This document shows positions 4,857 to 10,463 of a DNA stretch of 64,000 nt, one piece after another. The stretch's first letter is position 1; each line of letters begins with the position of its first letter. Below the pieces are notes generated by a model. It was not told the DNA's origin, did no database searches, and saw only the letters and a list, made by a program, of their open reading frames with translations. The stretch lies in contig NZ_FQWQ01000001.1 of NCBI RefSeq assembly GCF_900129725.1, positions 3,162,001 to 3,226,000 of the forward strand, written 5' to 3'. Both the position numbers and the translations under genes were made by a program. The stretch comes from Chryseolinea serpens. GTDB taxonomy: Bacteria; Bacteroidota; Bacteroidia; Cytophagales; Cyclobacteriaceae.

Positions 4857-5768
4857 TTAGAATTCCCAAAGGTTGTGTTCCTTCTCCATGAGCATCATCT
4901 CCGTCCACTCGCGAGCCCAAACGCCTTCTCTGTAGGGACGCCCGTTGCCACGGTAAGTGTCGTCGATGGTTTCATCGTCGGGGTTCTGCACTTTGTAGAT
5001 CGAGCCCTGGAACAATCTCAGCAGGAATGCATCGGCAAAGTTCTTGTTTTGCGCGGTGTTCTGGCGATTGAACCAAACGGCCTTCGGAATGTTGTTTCTG
5101 AATAATTTTTCCAGGTCCTTGTATTTGAACCATCCGAGCGAGTTATCTATACCCGTGGTGGTCTTCGCACCCGGAACGATGATCTCAAAAGCCTGGATGT
5201 CATAGTACAATCTGGATCTTCTTCTGTCGAAGATCATGTCTTCCATCATGTGGATCGAGCTCATGTCGCCAACAGCATATTCAAGGCCGCTACCTTGGTT
5301 GGTACCTGCCCAATAGTCGGTGGCGTCTTCGCTGGGCGTGATGCCCTTGCTGTCTTGCACGGCGCGATAGTTCTTGCCGTTGAAGCTCACGATATCATCC
5401 GTGTAGAAGTCGGTGGTCGGGGTCCAGGCCGGGAAGGTCTGGGCTTGCTCTTGTACCAACCGTCCCAGGAAGTCTTCCTTCGATAATTTGGTGGTCAAAG
5501 AGTCACTGTTATAAATATCTGTTAGCTCCCCAGACTTTACGGCATCAACAATGAGTTTGCTGATCTCTCCGTTTTTGGCGAAGAAGCCTTTGTTTTGCTT
5601 TTCCCGGAGATCGATATTCCTCCACACACGCACTTTGTAGTGCTGCTCATACACGGGAATTGGATTGAGCGAATTCGGATTGTACTGAACTTCCAAATCC
5701 TGCACCTCCTGCGCAAATGCGCCGGTCAGTCCAACTGAAAACAGTGTTATAAAAATGCTCTTTTTCAT
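4857..5768 (-). CDS. gldN: GldN/PorN, type IX secretion ring component, with a CBM-like insertion
   Basis: Periplasmic protein that forms the GldK-GldN ring of the type IX secretion/gliding machinery. The 303-residue precursor has a Sec signal peptide ending in AFAQ. The flanking core is recognisable as GldN (RVWRNIDLREKQN, MEDMIFDRRRSRLYYDIQAFEI, LEKLFRNNIPKAVWFNRQN). Residues about 112-155 look like a chitin-binding/CBM5-12 module: W115, Y122, V127, G131, Y134, A136, G142, P145 and W153 follow the family spacing. I do not know this module in GldN of well-studied species. The start codon overlaps the gldM stop by one base (TAATG), so the two are translationally coupled. It is the last gene of the porP-gldKLMN run. 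Confidence 0.92.
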   Translation of the reverse strand: MKKSIFITLFSVGLTGAFAQEVQDLEVQYNPNSLNPIPVYEQHYKVRVWRNIDLREKQNKGFFAKNGEISKLIVDAVKSGELTDIYNSDSLTTKLSKEDFLGRLVQEQAQTFPAWTPTTDFYTDDIVSFNGKNYRAVQDSKGITPSEDATDYWAGTNQGSGLEYAVGDMSSIHMMEDMIFDRRRSRLYYDIQAFEIIVPGAKTTTGIDNSLGWFKYKDLEKLFRNNIPKAVWFNRQNTAQNKNFADAFLLRLFQGSIYKVQNPDDETIDDTYRGNGRPYREGVWAREWTEMMLMEKEHNLWEF

Positions 5769-7360
5769 TAGTTTATCGGTATGATTATAATACCACTTGA
5801 ACCTTTAACGGGAACCTTTTCTTCGCCATCGGTGAACGTTCTGCGGGCAACTTCTTTGATGTCGATAACCACACGGTCACCGGGTCTTGCCTGGCTTGAC
5901 CAGGAGCGAAGGTCCGGATTTTCGTTGGTTGCATTAAGACGTTGCACGCCGGCAGTTCCACGACCCAAGATTACTTCTGCGCGTTTGATCTTGTAGCGTG
6001 CATCCTTGGGAACTTCTTCTTTGAAGTTGTTCTCAGGTTCTGCTACAAAACGCAGGTTAGCAAGTTGGTTGGGCTTAATACCATTTCTCAAATCCACAGC
6101 TGTACTTCCAATGTAAGCCACATAGCGGGGATCCGGAACGTTCTTCACATCGAATTGCTGATCACCGATTTTCGTTCCACCGTTGGTAACACCCACAGTG
6201 ATTTTACGGGCACTCGGAATGATTGTAACACGGCCGGGCTTATCACCCTTTCTGATCTCAGCGCTCGCCGCAGAGAAAGTAGGATTGTAGTTTGTACCCA
6301 ATGCAGGCACTTCAATGTTCACCGTATTACCGCAATTCATGTAAAGCGTAGGAGCGTTACCCGTTGTTACACGGATCACAGGCTGCGCCACGAAGTACTC
6401 AATGGTTTGCTCAAAAGTTTGACCCTTCACTTTGATCTCAGCTTTGAACGATTTTTTTGCAATGCCGGTAGGGTCATAGCCACCACCTTGTGCTGTAAAT
6501 TCGATCTTACCCATTTGCACGCCGCTGGGATCCGGGACGATCGGAAGTTTCGCGCCGTCCTTGAAGAATTCTGACGTCAAAGATGTTGATGAACCGGAAA
6601 GGAACATCTCGGCCTCGTATTTTGCTCCCGCAGCTACCGTGGAAGACTTGGCGCGCACCATGGGAATAAACTTGTCGAGATTGATGCGTTTCGCGCCGGC
6701 GTCGGTTGCCAGTTTATCCAGGGCACGACCTTCGTAGTCAAGCACTTCGGTTTGTGCCTGGGTTACAGAGGCCAAGGCTGCAATAACGGGCGTGTTTTCG
6801 AAGGTGAATTCCAAAAAGCTCTTGTTAACATGGTTCGCATCTCCTGCGAAAAGCGGGAGATCTTTAGGAGCCTTGGCAATTTTAGGCAACGCGGGTTGAA
6901 TCTTGGAGAGATCATTTACCTGCGTTACATAGTCGTTCAACAGTTTTTCATAGTTTTTGCCATCCGGCGACGACACATCGATCATCATGGTGGCCACTTT
7001 GGAACTGTGGTCGTTGATCAGTTTTTCATCGACTTTATCCGTTCCGGATGCGCTCATCATCTTCTTCTTCAGATCGTCGATCTGCTTCATCGTGCTCTTC
7101 GTGAGCTCCCTCACTTTTTGAGCACGTGCCATTGCATCGAGCACGCCTGCATCCTGGGTCTGTCCGGCATCCTTTATGATTTGACCCAATACTTGCTCAC
7201 TCTTGGTATTACCTGCCGTGATCAAGCCATTCAGGGTTTCGTTGATGATGGCAAATTTCTGAAGTACCGCGTTACTTACTTGCAGCGCGAGGAGCGCTGT
7301 AAGCACGAGGTACATCATGCCTATCATCTTCTGACGCGGGGTTTCTTTTCCACCTGCCAT
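5768..7360 (-). CDS. gldM: GldM/PorM, type IX secretion/gliding motor rotor subunit
   Basis: Inner-membrane protein whose single N-terminal helix (MIGMMYLVLTALLALQVSNAV, residues about 12-32) sits inside the GldL pentamer and whose long periplasmic part spans towards the GldKN ring. The 530 residues include the conserved start MAGGKETPRQKMIGMMYLV, an alpha-helical first periplasmic domain (to about residue 220), and beta-rich D2-D4 domains ending in GSSGIIIIPIN. Length is normal for the family. It follows gldL after 44 bases and overlaps gldN by one base. The positive charge before the helix fits the N-in topology known for GldM. Confidence 0.96.
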   Translation of the reverse strand: MAGGKETPRQKMIGMMYLVLTALLALQVSNAVLQKFAIINETLNGLITAGNTKSEQVLGQIIKDAGQTQDAGVLDAMARAQKVRELTKSTMKQIDDLKKKMMSASGTDKVDEKLINDHSSKVATMMIDVSSPDGKNYEKLLNDYVTQVNDLSKIQPALPKIAKAPKDLPLFAGDANHVNKSFLEFTFENTPVIAALASVTQAQTEVLDYEGRALDKLATDAGAKRINLDKFIPMVRAKSSTVAAGAKYEAEMFLSGSSTSLTSEFFKDGAKLPIVPDPSGVQMGKIEFTAQGGGYDPTGIAKKSFKAEIKVKGQTFEQTIEYFVAQPVIRVTTGNAPTLYMNCGNTVNIEVPALGTNYNPTFSAASAEIRKGDKPGRVTIIPSARKITVGVTNGGTKIGDQQFDVKNVPDPRYVAYIGSTAVDLRNGIKPNQLANLRFVAEPENNFKEEVPKDARYKIKRAEVILGRGTAGVQRLNATNENPDLRSWSSQARPGDRVVIDIKEVARRTFTDGEEKVPVKGSSGIIIIPIN

Positions 7361-7404: not shown

Positions 7405-8229
7405 TTATGCGTTCTGTCCGCCGCCTTTCATCGCGGTGAGCATGCTGCCATAAACCTTGTTCAAAGAAGTCAGGTTGTCTGTGAGCTTACCAAGTTCGGA
7501 AGTGAACTTCGCTGTGTTATCACCAACTTTGGAAAGTCCGGTCATAGCGCCAGTGAGGCTTTCATAGAACTTGTTCATGTTTTTAACGTGGCTATCGGCA
7601 TCCTTCAACTCCATTTCATACACTGAATTGAGAGCAGCAAGGTTCTTCGTCACTTTTTGTACTTGCGAGTGGTATTCGCCAGCGTCTTTGGATGCTTCAG
7701 ACATGCTCGATACGGCCTTGATGGCAGTGTCGTAGGACTTGTTCATTTCCAAAAGCTGTGTAGAAGCCTTCTTCACGTTGGTAGCGTAGTCGTTGGTGGC
7801 TACTGCTGCATCGGAGAGGTTCGACATTTTCTTGGCAGAGTCGGCCAGGTTGGTCAGACCTTTGCCTAAGCTATCCAACAGTTCAGGGCCAATTTTGGCT
7901 TTCTCCAGGGAAACATCCAATTGTTGTGTCAGCGATGCGCCTGCAGGCTTGTTAGAGATCCGGGTAGGCGTTGCAGGAGCTTCGTAGTCTTCGCCCAGTT
8001 CGGGGTATACTTTCGACCAATCGGGCTCTTGATGAGGCGGCTCAAAAGCGCTCAGAAAGAAAATAACTGCTTCAGTGGTCAAGCCTATGAACAGCATTTG
8101 GTCAGCACCTTCGTAGTGGAGGATCTTGAATAACGCCCCAATAATTACGACTGCCGCACCAATACCATAGACTTTTGGCATTATAGTTTTGTAGAGTAGT
8201 TCAACAAATCCGCCTTTTTTCTTGCTCAT
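7405..8229 (-). CDS. gldL: GldL/PorL, type IX secretion/gliding motor stator subunit
   Basis: Cytoplasmic-membrane partner of GldM; the GldLM complex converts proton flow into motion that powers secretion and gliding. Two membrane helices lie at about 17-37 (VYGIGAAVVIIGALFKIL) and 44-62 (MLFIGLTTEAVIFFLSAF). Glu53 in helix 2 corresponds to the buried acidic residue held to carry protons in this family; Tyr21, Lys35 and His38 in helix 1 also match polar positions I recall as conserved. The rest (about 100-274) is a cytoplasmic helical domain rich in Ala, Lys and Ser. It lies 71 bases after gldK in the same direction. Confidence 0.95.
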   Translation of the reverse strand: MSKKKGGFVELLYKTIMPKVYGIGAAVVIIGALFKILHYEGADQMLFIGLTTEAVIFFLSAFEPPHQEPDWSKVYPELGEDYEAPATPTRISNKPAGASLTQQLDVSLEKAKIGPELLDSLGKGLTNLADSAKKMSNLSDAAVATNDYATNVKKASTQLLEMNKSYDTAIKAVSSMSEASKDAGEYHSQVQKVTKNLAALNSVYEMELKDADSHVKNMNKFYESLTGAMTGLSKVGDNTAKFTSELGKLTDNLTSLNKVYGSMLTAMKGGGQNA

Positions 8230-8300: not shown

Positions 8301-9386
8301 CTAAAATTCCTGACCTGACGAACGGCCCAAGTGCGTCATGGCGCAACGGAAGCCTATATACGCACGGGTGGAATCTTTGAATTCATATGTCCGTGTACCG
8401 GTTTCCAGGTAGTAGGCCACGTCTTTCCACGAGCCGCCGCGAACCACTTTCTTGGGCGGAACACGGGGGTTGTACTTGGCACTTTCCGGGTTGGTACGGG
8501 GGTCGATGTATTGTGGGTTCAAGTCCCAAACCGTGGGTACGGATGCGGGGTTGAAGTCGTCGAGGCACCATTCGGATACGTTGCCTGACATGTCGTACAG
8601 ACCATAGTCGTTGGGGAAGTAGGACTGTACGGGTGAGGAGTAGGCGAAGCCGTCGTCGTAGAAGTTACCGCGGCCGGGTTTGAAGTTGGCCAGCATACAA
8701 CCTTTCGAGTTACGGATATACGGGTTACCCCAAGGATATTTTGCCATATCGCGGCCACCGCGGGCTGCATATTCCCATTCTGCTTCGGAGGGCAGACGGA
8801 AGGCGGGCATCGGAAAATCACCCACGCTCTTGCGGTAGTCGTTCAGGTAAGCGGTTCTCCATTGACCGAAGAACACGGCAGCGTCCCAGTTCACGCCCAC
8901 GACCGGATAGTCGTCGTAGCCGGGGTGCCAGTAGTAATAGTCCTGGATAGGATCGCCCATGTGGTGTGCGAAGTCGCGAACCCAGGAAGCGGTATCCGGA
9001 TAGTATTTCTGACGGAACGTTTCTGCGTCTACAGTTTCGAAGCCTTCAATGCTTCCGTTATCGACCAGGAAAAAGTTGGTGAACTGGCGATACTCATTGT
9101 TCGTGATTTCTGTATCGTCCATGAAGAACGAACCGATCGTTACTTGCTTGTTGAAGTTGATCTGCGTAGAAGCAGGGTCTTCATCCGCTTGCCCCATGTG
9201 GAATGTTCCGGCAGGAATGGGCACCATACCATAGGGGATGGTCATCACCCAGCCTTCTCGCCCGGGAACACCAACGAGTTCACCCTGGTCGCCGCCTTTT
9301 TTGCCGCCAAGGCCAAGTAATCCACAAGCACTGGCAACAGCCCCTGCGAATACTAAAACTACTTTAGAAACAACCGATTTATTCAT
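8301..9386 (-). CDS. gldK: GldK/PorK, T9SS ring lipoprotein with a formylglycine-generating-enzyme fold
   Basis: Outer-membrane-associated lipoprotein that forms the periplasmic ring with GldN. The signal peptide ends in a lipobox (VASAC, Cys21). The body is an FGE-sulfatase-like domain: PIPAGTFHMGQ near the start, TEITNNEYRQF, PVVGVNWDAAVFFGQW, FRLPSEAEWEYAARGG, DMSGNVSEWCLDD, VRGGSWKD and RAYIGFRC. In GldK this fold is structural rather than catalytic as far as is known. The 361-residue length is in the usual range. It follows porP after about 125 bases and begins the gldKLMN genes. Confidence 0.95.
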   Translation of the reverse strand: MNKSVVSKVVLVFAGAVASACGLLGLGGKKGGDQGELVGVPGREGWVMTIPYGMVPIPAGTFHMGQADEDPASTQINFNKQVTIGSFFMDDTEITNNEYRQFTNFFLVDNGSIEGFETVDAETFRQKYYPDTASWVRDFAHHMGDPIQDYYYWHPGYDDYPVVGVNWDAAVFFGQWRTAYLNDYRKSVGDFPMPAFRLPSEAEWEYAARGGRDMAKYPWGNPYIRNSKGCMLANFKPGRGNFYDDGFAYSSPVQSYFPNDYGLYDMSGNVSEWCLDDFNPASVPTVWDLNPQYIDPRTNPESAKYNPRVPPKKVVRGGSWKDVAYYLETGTRTYEFKDSTRAYIGFRCAMTHLGRSSGQEF

Positions 9387-9512: not shown

Positions 9513-10463
9513 CTAGTGCCTATACCGGGGGGTCCGAACGACTTTTTTGCCGCTGGTGCCAACTACCGGTAGATCATAGCTTATCATAAATTCCAGTGAA
9601 AAAGTCTCTTTTGCAGCCCGATCCTTTACGATAAAGTCGATGCCCGTTCCCAACTTCAGTGACTTGTCTTTCAGCAGAGCATAACCCAGTAGTAAACTGG
9701 CCGCTTCCGACTGTCTAAACGCCACGCCTCCCCACATCGTATCTTTGATGTAGGCAATTCCCGCCAGATCGACTTGGGTCTTGTTCAAATCGGTTCTAAT
9801 GGCGGTGGAGAACTGTACTTTCAGGTCGAAGCTCACCTCGTAGAAATATCCACCGGTGAAGTTGATGTGATTTTCCAAGGCTCCGCGCACGCTGTCCTGG
9901 CCGAAGTTGAACTTGGAGCGCAAGAGGTGGTTGAAGCCTAAGCCGAGGTAGTATTTTTCGGCTCTATAGAAGACGCCCAATCCGAGGTCGGGTCTTACTT
10001 GTGATTCTTTTCCTTCGACAATGAGCGGGTCACCTTCCTGTACGTAGCGATAATATTTGCCGTTGACCGTTTGAGAGTAGATTCCGGCTTTGATACCGAA
10101 ACTTAGTTTGGTGTCTTTGATGCCCAGGTGATAGGCATACATCACTTGTGCTTCGAGGTTGTTCTGAGGACCGAGTTTGTCGTTCATAATGTACGCACCG
10201 GCACCGCTGTTGAGCTTGTGGATGGGTGTGTTGAACGAAACCATTTGCGTAGTGGGAGCACCGCCGTCGCCGAAGCTCGACTGGTAGCCCAACCATTGAC
10301 TTCTATGGATAGCCGAGAAATGGGTAACCCCGTCAACCCCTGCATACGCTGGTGTCATGTACAAGTTATTGAACATGTATTGCGTGAAGAGAGCGTCTTG
10401 CTGAGCAAAAGCCCCTGCGGTAACAAGCAGCAGCGAGAGGGTATAAAAAGTCCTTTTCAGCAT
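9513..10463 (-). CDS. PorP/SprF family type IX secretion outer-membrane protein
   Basis: Outer-membrane beta-barrel of the PorP/SprF family, known to work next to the GldKN ring and in attachment of secreted adhesins. The 316-residue precursor has a signal peptide (LLLVTAGAFAQ) followed by the hallmark DALFTQYMFNNLYMTPAYAG and HRSQWLGYQ. The rest alternates short hydrophobic strands with Gly/Tyr-rich turns, as expected of a barrel (GAGAYIMND, LSFGIKAGIY, YLGLGFNHLL). The gene lies directly upstream of gldK on the same strand, as porP does in other Bacteroidota, which favours the PorP role over one of the many SprF paralogues. Confidence 0.92.
   Translation of the reverse strand: MLKRTFYTLSLLLVTAGAFAQQDALFTQYMFNNLYMTPAYAGVDGVTHFSAIHRSQWLGYQSSFGDGGAPTTQMVSFNTPIHKLNSGAGAYIMNDKLGPQNNLEAQVMYAYHLGIKDTKLSFGIKAGIYSQTVNGKYYRYVQEGDPLIVEGKESQVRPDLGLGVFYRAEKYYLGLGFNHLLRSKFNFGQDSVRGALENHINFTGGYFYEVSFDLKVQFSTAIRTDLNKTQVDLAGIAYIKDTMWGGVAFRQSEAASLLLGYALLKDKSLKLGTGIDFIVKDRAAKETFSLEFMISYDLPVVGTSGKKVVRTPRYRH

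Follow-up and report, generated by a model that had tools for sequence, protein, structure and literature searches.

A CBM5/12-fold module inserted in the type IX secretion protein GldN of Chryseolinea serpens

Two described systems bear on the gene studied here. The first is the ring of the type IX secretion system (T9SS): as presented in the available sections of one structural study, the PorK/PorN ring comprises 31-35 pairs beneath the outer membrane, two glycosylation sites are present on each of PorK and PorN in the Porphyromonas gingivalis structure, a prediction of weak confidence places the PorM tip on the periplasmic face, in a cleft formed between PorN copies, and the authors argue that GldK/GldN belong to the moving gliding track (PMC12635249). 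GldN is placed on a ring or track pushed by the proton-driven GldL/GldM motor, according to the accessible parts of that study and of a second one (PMC9127263; PMC12635249). The second system is the CBM5/12 group of carbohydrate-binding modules (PF02839; 2d49, 2rts, 1ed7 and 6z40), usually found beside a catalytic domain; for family 5, the available text of PMC8449059 describes two consecutive exposed aromatics (Tyr-Trp or Trp-Trp) as important for chitin binding.

The window analysed here, a stretch of 64,000 nucleotides from Chryseolinea serpens (contig NZ_FQWQ01000001.1, positions 3,162,001 to 3,226,000), carries on its minus strand a T9SS/gliding operon made of a PorP/SprF-like protein, gldK, gldL, gldM and gldN (Table 1), so that the gldK-gldL-gldM context of GldN/PorN is present. 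The window GldN is like described GldN/PorN proteins (PF19841, TIGR03523; 9mzu, 9ots, 9myj, 7pvh) in family, in its gldK-gldL-gldM-gldN operon and in core fold: it passes the cut-offs of both families (PF19841, 213.1 bits against 23; TIGR03523, 120.1 against 85.9), the Pfam match spans residues 41-302, and its complete model matches the P. gingivalis PorN structures in Foldseek with E-values from 1.3e-9 (9ots) to 1.5e-7. Its closest genome relatives belong to Chryseolinea (93% and 87% identity). Base 5768 of the window is shared by the end of gldM and the start of gldN, a one-base overlap that suggests coupled translation. One segment distinguishes the protein from the other canonical GldNs examined: a CBM5/12 module, here inside a secretion-ring protein, where these have a variable module-free linker or almost nothing. 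By analogy with the P. gingivalis structures, as far as the available sections describe them (PMC12635249), we infer that the window GldN would assemble with GldK into a ring or track, and each of these would then bear one module per GldN. No description of a module in GldN was found in the literature titles and abstract beginnings that we searched, subscription papers being mostly outside our reach.

Table 1. Features of the gldN locus and their coordinates in the window
Feature	Coordinates	Strand	Basis
PorP/SprF family outer-membrane protein	9513..10463	minus	TIGR03519, 221.2 bits
gldK, ring lipoprotein	8301..9386	minus	TIGR03525, 446.8 bits
gldL, motor protein	7405..8229	minus	TIGR03513, 257.8 bits
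gldM, motor protein	5768..7360	minus	TIGR03517, 312.3 bits; coordinates
gldN, 303 aa, type IX secretion ring/track protein	4857..5768	minus	ORF; PF19841; TIGR03523
GldN N-terminal part ahead of the insert, residues 1-104, including a signal peptide called by eye from the sequence	5457..5768	minus	A1 alignment and model
Complete replaced segment, about residues 105-163; linker or deletion in the other Cytophagales GldNs examined	5280..5456	minus	alignments; lengths by class
CBM5/12-fold module, residues 112-155 of GldN	5304..5435	minus	Pfam; PDB profile search; AlphaFold2; Foldseek
Codons of Q138-D139, aligned with the chitin-binding Trp-Trp of CBM5	5352..5357	minus	alignment with 2d49; residue counts
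GldN core downstream of the insert, residues 164-303	4857..5279	minus	profile match to PorN/GldN chains 9myj, 9ots, 9mzu, 7pvh

A CBM5/12 fold within GldN

Residues 112-155 of the window GldN are a CBM5/12-fold module. A preliminary description of the locus had proposed such a module at about these residues, and both the module and its position are borne out by Pfam, by the orthologous segments, by a profile search of the PDB, by AlphaFold2 and by Foldseek. Taken in isolation, the segment matches CBM_5_12 with 26.8 bits (E 5.2e-6), above the curated cut-off of 26.2 bits; the complete protein stays under that cut-off, with 21.7 bits (E 2.1e-4). Among orthologues, 42 of 44 isolated modules match the Pfam family at E <= 0.01 (best 2.5e-9) but it is found at E <= 1e-5 in only 13 of the 55 complete GldNs of our alignment A1 (53 with the module, two without), meaning that routine annotation may detect or miss the module depending on the species. 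A1 was built from the window GldN plus 54 of 67 loci found in an ortholog scan (the 13 omitted include partial ones), and the module alignment A2 keeps 44 of its 55 rows, leaving out near-duplicates, the tandem L064 and the module-free L076 and L077; mean column identity is 50% in A1 and 51% in A2. One of the six seeds of the ortholog scan was the module peptide, which favours module-bearing GldNs, a bias from which the PF19841 searches described below are free.

Profile searches against PDB sequences point the same way. With the profile of the 55 orthologues, the top match is the chitin-binding domain 2rts (E 1.3e-4), PorN/GldN chains ranking below it and aligning only from about position 157; with a module-only profile, 2rts (E 4.6e-6) is found together with 2d49 (6.9e-5) and 1ed7 (1.5e-4). 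Chance likeness to CBM5/12 was rejected by a shuffle control: the window segment scores 76.4 bits and the best of 4954 scored shuffles (of 5000) 15.9 bits, against a profile built from the 35 of 44 modules that are less than 55% identical to the window module, itself excluded.

AlphaFold2 models the module alone with a mean pLDDT of 93; in the model of GldN, the block means across residues 111-160 are 78-89. The predicted structure is a small beta fold with conserved core aromatics. In Foldseek, it resembles the chitinase C domain (TM 0.77 to 1wvv and 0.74 to 2d49, probability 1.00) and 2rts (TM 0.73), with phage tail fibres among the matches that follow and no E-value below 0.001 for a query of only 53 residues. 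The 50 matches listed, of 123 in all, consist of chitinases, deacetylases of chitin or oligosaccharides, chitin-binding domains, proteins of phage tail fibres or baseplates, and a baseplate of a contractile injection system. The likeness to CBM5/12 covers fold, length and the core residues W115, F121, Y134, W153, G131 and P145. The nine residues originally read as following the spacing of the family (W115, Y122, V127, G131, Y134, A136, G142, P145 and W153) are all at their positions, but Y122 is not the canonical Tyr of the module: in the HMMER alignment to 2rts it is F121 that takes the place of this Tyr, leaving Y122 as an additional aromatic. All 52 aligned modules have aromatics at residues 115, 134 and 153, and 51 have Tyr or Phe at 122.

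The module also has weak matches to phage tail-fibre families of PHROG (best E 4.2e-4), and the CBM5/12-like, putatively dyad-less modules of such fibres (8fqc, 9rkv, 8kec) also match it in fold while belonging to a different host protein; the weak PHROG matches hint at a phage-type source without establishing it. Elsewhere in the same genome, locus L002 (643-2403, minus strand; C10:988583-990340) encodes a 586-aa membrane protein whose module closely resembles that of GldN (60.8 bits to the module profile); in other genomes of the family, different portions of this protein correspond to distinct, shorter frames, which suggests that it is a fusion.

Occupants of the insertion site and their history

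The module is an insertion, as the preliminary description had proposed: CBM_5_12 does match the segment, and orthologues do not share it as common core, relatives having a variable linker in its place. The 30 order-level GldNs compared (L081-L110, the best-scoring order-level matches rather than a random draw), together with L076 and L077, have a variable module-free linker there, in most cases with an abundance of Gly, Asp, Glu, Ala or Lys, and none of the linkers scored against the module profile exceeds 2.5 bits. A reading of the segment as ordinary GldN core was therefore rejected, the other Cytophagales GldNs examined having a linker or almost nothing there. When a linker-type GldN was compared with the PDB by phmmer, there was no match at E <= 0.01.

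Searches with PF19841 find GldN in 145 of 148 genomes of the window's family, and the module profile matches inside GldN, by overlap of coordinates, in 30 of these 145; diverged modules were recognised in four further family genomes (G235, G277, G069 and G149) by reading their sequences. Of the 130 family rows placed in trees (the window and 129 others), the module is found in 30 and a linker in 69, and in the remaining 31 just nine residues separate the anchors. Over 79 linker rows, ten of them from the order sample, the linker measures 32-106 residues (median 48) and is 51% Gly, Asp, Glu and Ser. Module-bearing GldNs include those of Chryseolinea, Ohtaekwangia, Dawidia, Chryseotalea and Fulvivirga. 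In the order sample (148 genomes, 136 with GldN), the module profile matches the GldN of three genomes, and those of G069 and G149 were recognised by eye in addition; the five genomes all belong to the window's family, so that no module was seen in a canonical GldN from outside that family in this sample. A weak match in G048 (L278) was rejected, as the protein is not a GldN. In the class sample, five of the 15 outside-family matches were inspected (L263, L272, L273, L274 and L276) and none is a GldN; the other ten sit in frames of at least 534 aa.

The site has further occupants. Two GldNs from metagenome bins (L064, 3241-3546, and L066) carry a tandem pair of modules. In 31 GldNs of one family branch (L228-L233, L235-L240 and L244-L262) the linker is almost entirely lost, and the long branch that these near-linkerless proteins occupy in the core tree gives the impression of a remodelled ring subunit. 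In five order-sample GldNs (L092, L094, L095, L103 and L110), the linker contains repeated Asp-Asp-Gly-Trp-Gly units, which make it an acidic, Trp-bearing stretch.

Trees of the GldN core, built without the insert, gather all module rows. In a tree of 140 rows (the window, 129 of 130 family loci and ten of the 30 order loci, the divergent L154 being left out), the 30 module rows cluster as a single clade with an SH-aLRT of 99, and a 59-row tree drawn from these 140, inferred with a mixture model, gives this clade a bootstrap of 100 and an SH-aLRT of 99, its three-row outgroup not forming one side of a branch. The fewest changes on the core tree is one, a single gain with zero loss. Given that all module-bearing canonical GldNs lie in one clade, the simplest history is one gain: the module appears to have been gained once and kept since. 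The sister row of the clade, L150, has an acidic linker, and one genome, G158, holds both states, in the module-free divergent L154 and the module-bearing L224. The module is under purifying selection: over five close pairs only, its dN/dS is 0.098, compared with 0.067 for the core. Five GldNs from two branches of the module clade (L219, L224, L227, L234 and L241) have strongly diverged modules, with 3 to 27 bits to the profile, L241 counting as a module by eye and by its tree position only (3.2 bits; Pfam E 0.24); separate captures were rejected for these five, as core trees nest them in the single module clade.

Confinement to one clade holds for canonical GldN only. A double-GldN paralogue family occurs in the order, with two GldN-like halves in about 460-680 aa (L277, L279, L280, L282-L285, L348-L363); six of these proteins were run against Pfam, and all six exceed the PF19841 cut-off, with 34.6 to 78.1 bits. 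CBM5/12-like modules lie at the GldN linker site in six of 23 double-GldN paralogues examined and are lacking in 17, the 23 being frames of this length chosen among the matches listed rather than a census. The modules are in both halves of L279, L280 and L277 (the first L277 copy by eye only, at 0.4 bits) and in the first half of L283, L284 and L352; L279 also passes the CBM_5_12 cut-off, with 28.0 bits. These six thus share the site with canonical GldN and differ from it in their two halves and in the weakness of their sequence likeness. L277 and L352 both come from G056, a genome outside the window's family, and the genomes of L283 and L284 (G263 and G212) have canonical GldNs with an acidic linker (L155 and L163). 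The single gain consequently applies to canonical GldN only; as for the double-GldN paralogue, it may have given the module fold to GldN, received it from GldN or come to use it independently. Seven genomes (G026, G042, G057, G085, G112, G141 and G151) have five or six GldN matches each, and one match in each of G026, G042, G085, G112 and G151 is a double GldN.

Chitin-binding residues and the role of the module

The pair of consecutive aromatics typical of chitin-binding CBM5 is absent from the GldN module. Positions 138 and 139 are both aromatic in none of 52 aligned modules; across the 83 distinct copies of the GldN module, position 139 never holds an aromatic (Asp in 71, Asn in eight, Pro in three and Ala in one), and position 138 is aromatic in 18. 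The Trp-Trp or Tyr-Trp dyad is therefore replaced by x-Asp in most copies. None of the 52 has an aromatic at position 150, the residue that, judged by its offset from the core Trp, would correspond to the third aromatic used for binding in CjCBM5. As a control, we considered 36 module copies outside canonical GldN, from the window's own genome and the order, family and class samples, selected by likeness to the GldN module and not as a census: Trp-Trp is present in 11, others share the Asp form, and 25 in all lack Trp-Trp or are cut short there. In this list L002 and L264 are one protein, L122, one of the 36, sits in a double GldN, and the flag for GldN also marks proteins that match via the module alone. 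Since most control copies also lack Trp-Trp, loss of the dyad is common in the CBM5/12-type fold rather than specific to GldN, and the GldN module is thus a member of a dyad-less branch of this fold.

On balance, we think it somewhat probable that GldN has captured a fold of lectin type, which now serves the GldK/GldN ring or track as a knob with a structural or protein-contact function, and not as a chitin or peptidoglycan anchor. The module could have come from the dyad-less kind of CBM5/12 fold by capture, or GldN and the double-GldN paralogue could have exchanged it. It would now form a small rigid knob on every GldN subunit, and this knob might brace neighbouring subunits or contact a protein, be it GldM, GldK/GldJ or another periplasmic partner. 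The strong divergence of the module in five GldNs of the clade tells against this reading, as does the frequency of dyad loss elsewhere in the fold. A bolder proposal, which we regard as tentative, is that the GldN linker offers CBM5/12-type folds a place to dock, both in canonical GldN of one clade and in the double-GldN paralogues, with the modules set in a regular row of knobs along the GldK/GldN ring or gliding track and acting as a tread that would engage GldM, peptidoglycan or glycosylated subunits and alter the grip or slide of the motor.

Alternatively, the module might be a passive folded spacer, at a site that accepts many fillings and from which a folded domain is rarely removed cleanly. 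The variety of occupants, from linkers of any length in the observed range or a nine-residue stretch to one module or a tandem pair, would suit such tolerance, but no module-free row is found inside the module clade, and the low dN/dS of the module speaks against a spacer, even if maintenance of the fold alone would demand the same. The recurrence of this fold at the linker site of double-GldN paralogues slightly strengthens the structural or contact reading and weakens the spacer, which we regard as unlikely.

We give still less credit to a glycan-binding role, in which the module would bind peptidoglycan, a glycosylated ring subunit or an envelope polysaccharide via a site other than the dyad, and so anchor or guide the ring or track. 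CBM12 (1ed7) binds through a different Trp, and absence of the dyad is for this reason no proof that all sugar binding has been lost. The predicted CBM5/12 fold itself would be in keeping with a glycan role, as would the extra conserved aromatic Y122 and the aromatics at position 138 in a minority of copies, and the glycosylation sites of PorK and PorN, in the sections of PMC12635249 available, imply that sugar could be near. Yet the dyad is missing in 83 of 83 distinct copies, with Asp at 139 in 71, and no aromatic stands at position 150; the anchor to glycan or peptidoglycan put forward in the preliminary description accordingly finds no support in the residues. Moreover, if GldK/GldN are the moving track, as argued in the accessible part of PMC12635249, a wall anchor fixed on it would be expected to act as a brake on movement.

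Lastly, that the CBM5/12 likeness is chance or convergence and the segment a clade-specific piece of GldN core is extremely improbable: the sub-threshold Pfam score of the whole protein and the Foldseek E-values of the short module model would fit it, but the matches of nearly all isolated modules to CBM_5_12, the PDB profile search, the chitin-related and phage- or injection-baseplate proteins among the Foldseek matches, the shuffle control and the tandem copies in L064 and L066 all oppose it.

A module in GldN bears on how the ring meets the motor and the cell wall, an open question in the available parts of the two studies of this machinery (PMC9127263; PMC12635249). Domain capture in GldN provides a natural experiment, in which one machine can be compared in versions that have a linker, next to nothing, a single module or two modules, and the module itself is a folded handle for mapping this part of the ring by cryo-EM. 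More broadly, the GldN module is a case of a carbohydrate-binding fold retained without its usual binding site; if the linker is indeed a docking site and the knobs a tread, a captured lectin fold would have been turned into a machine part.
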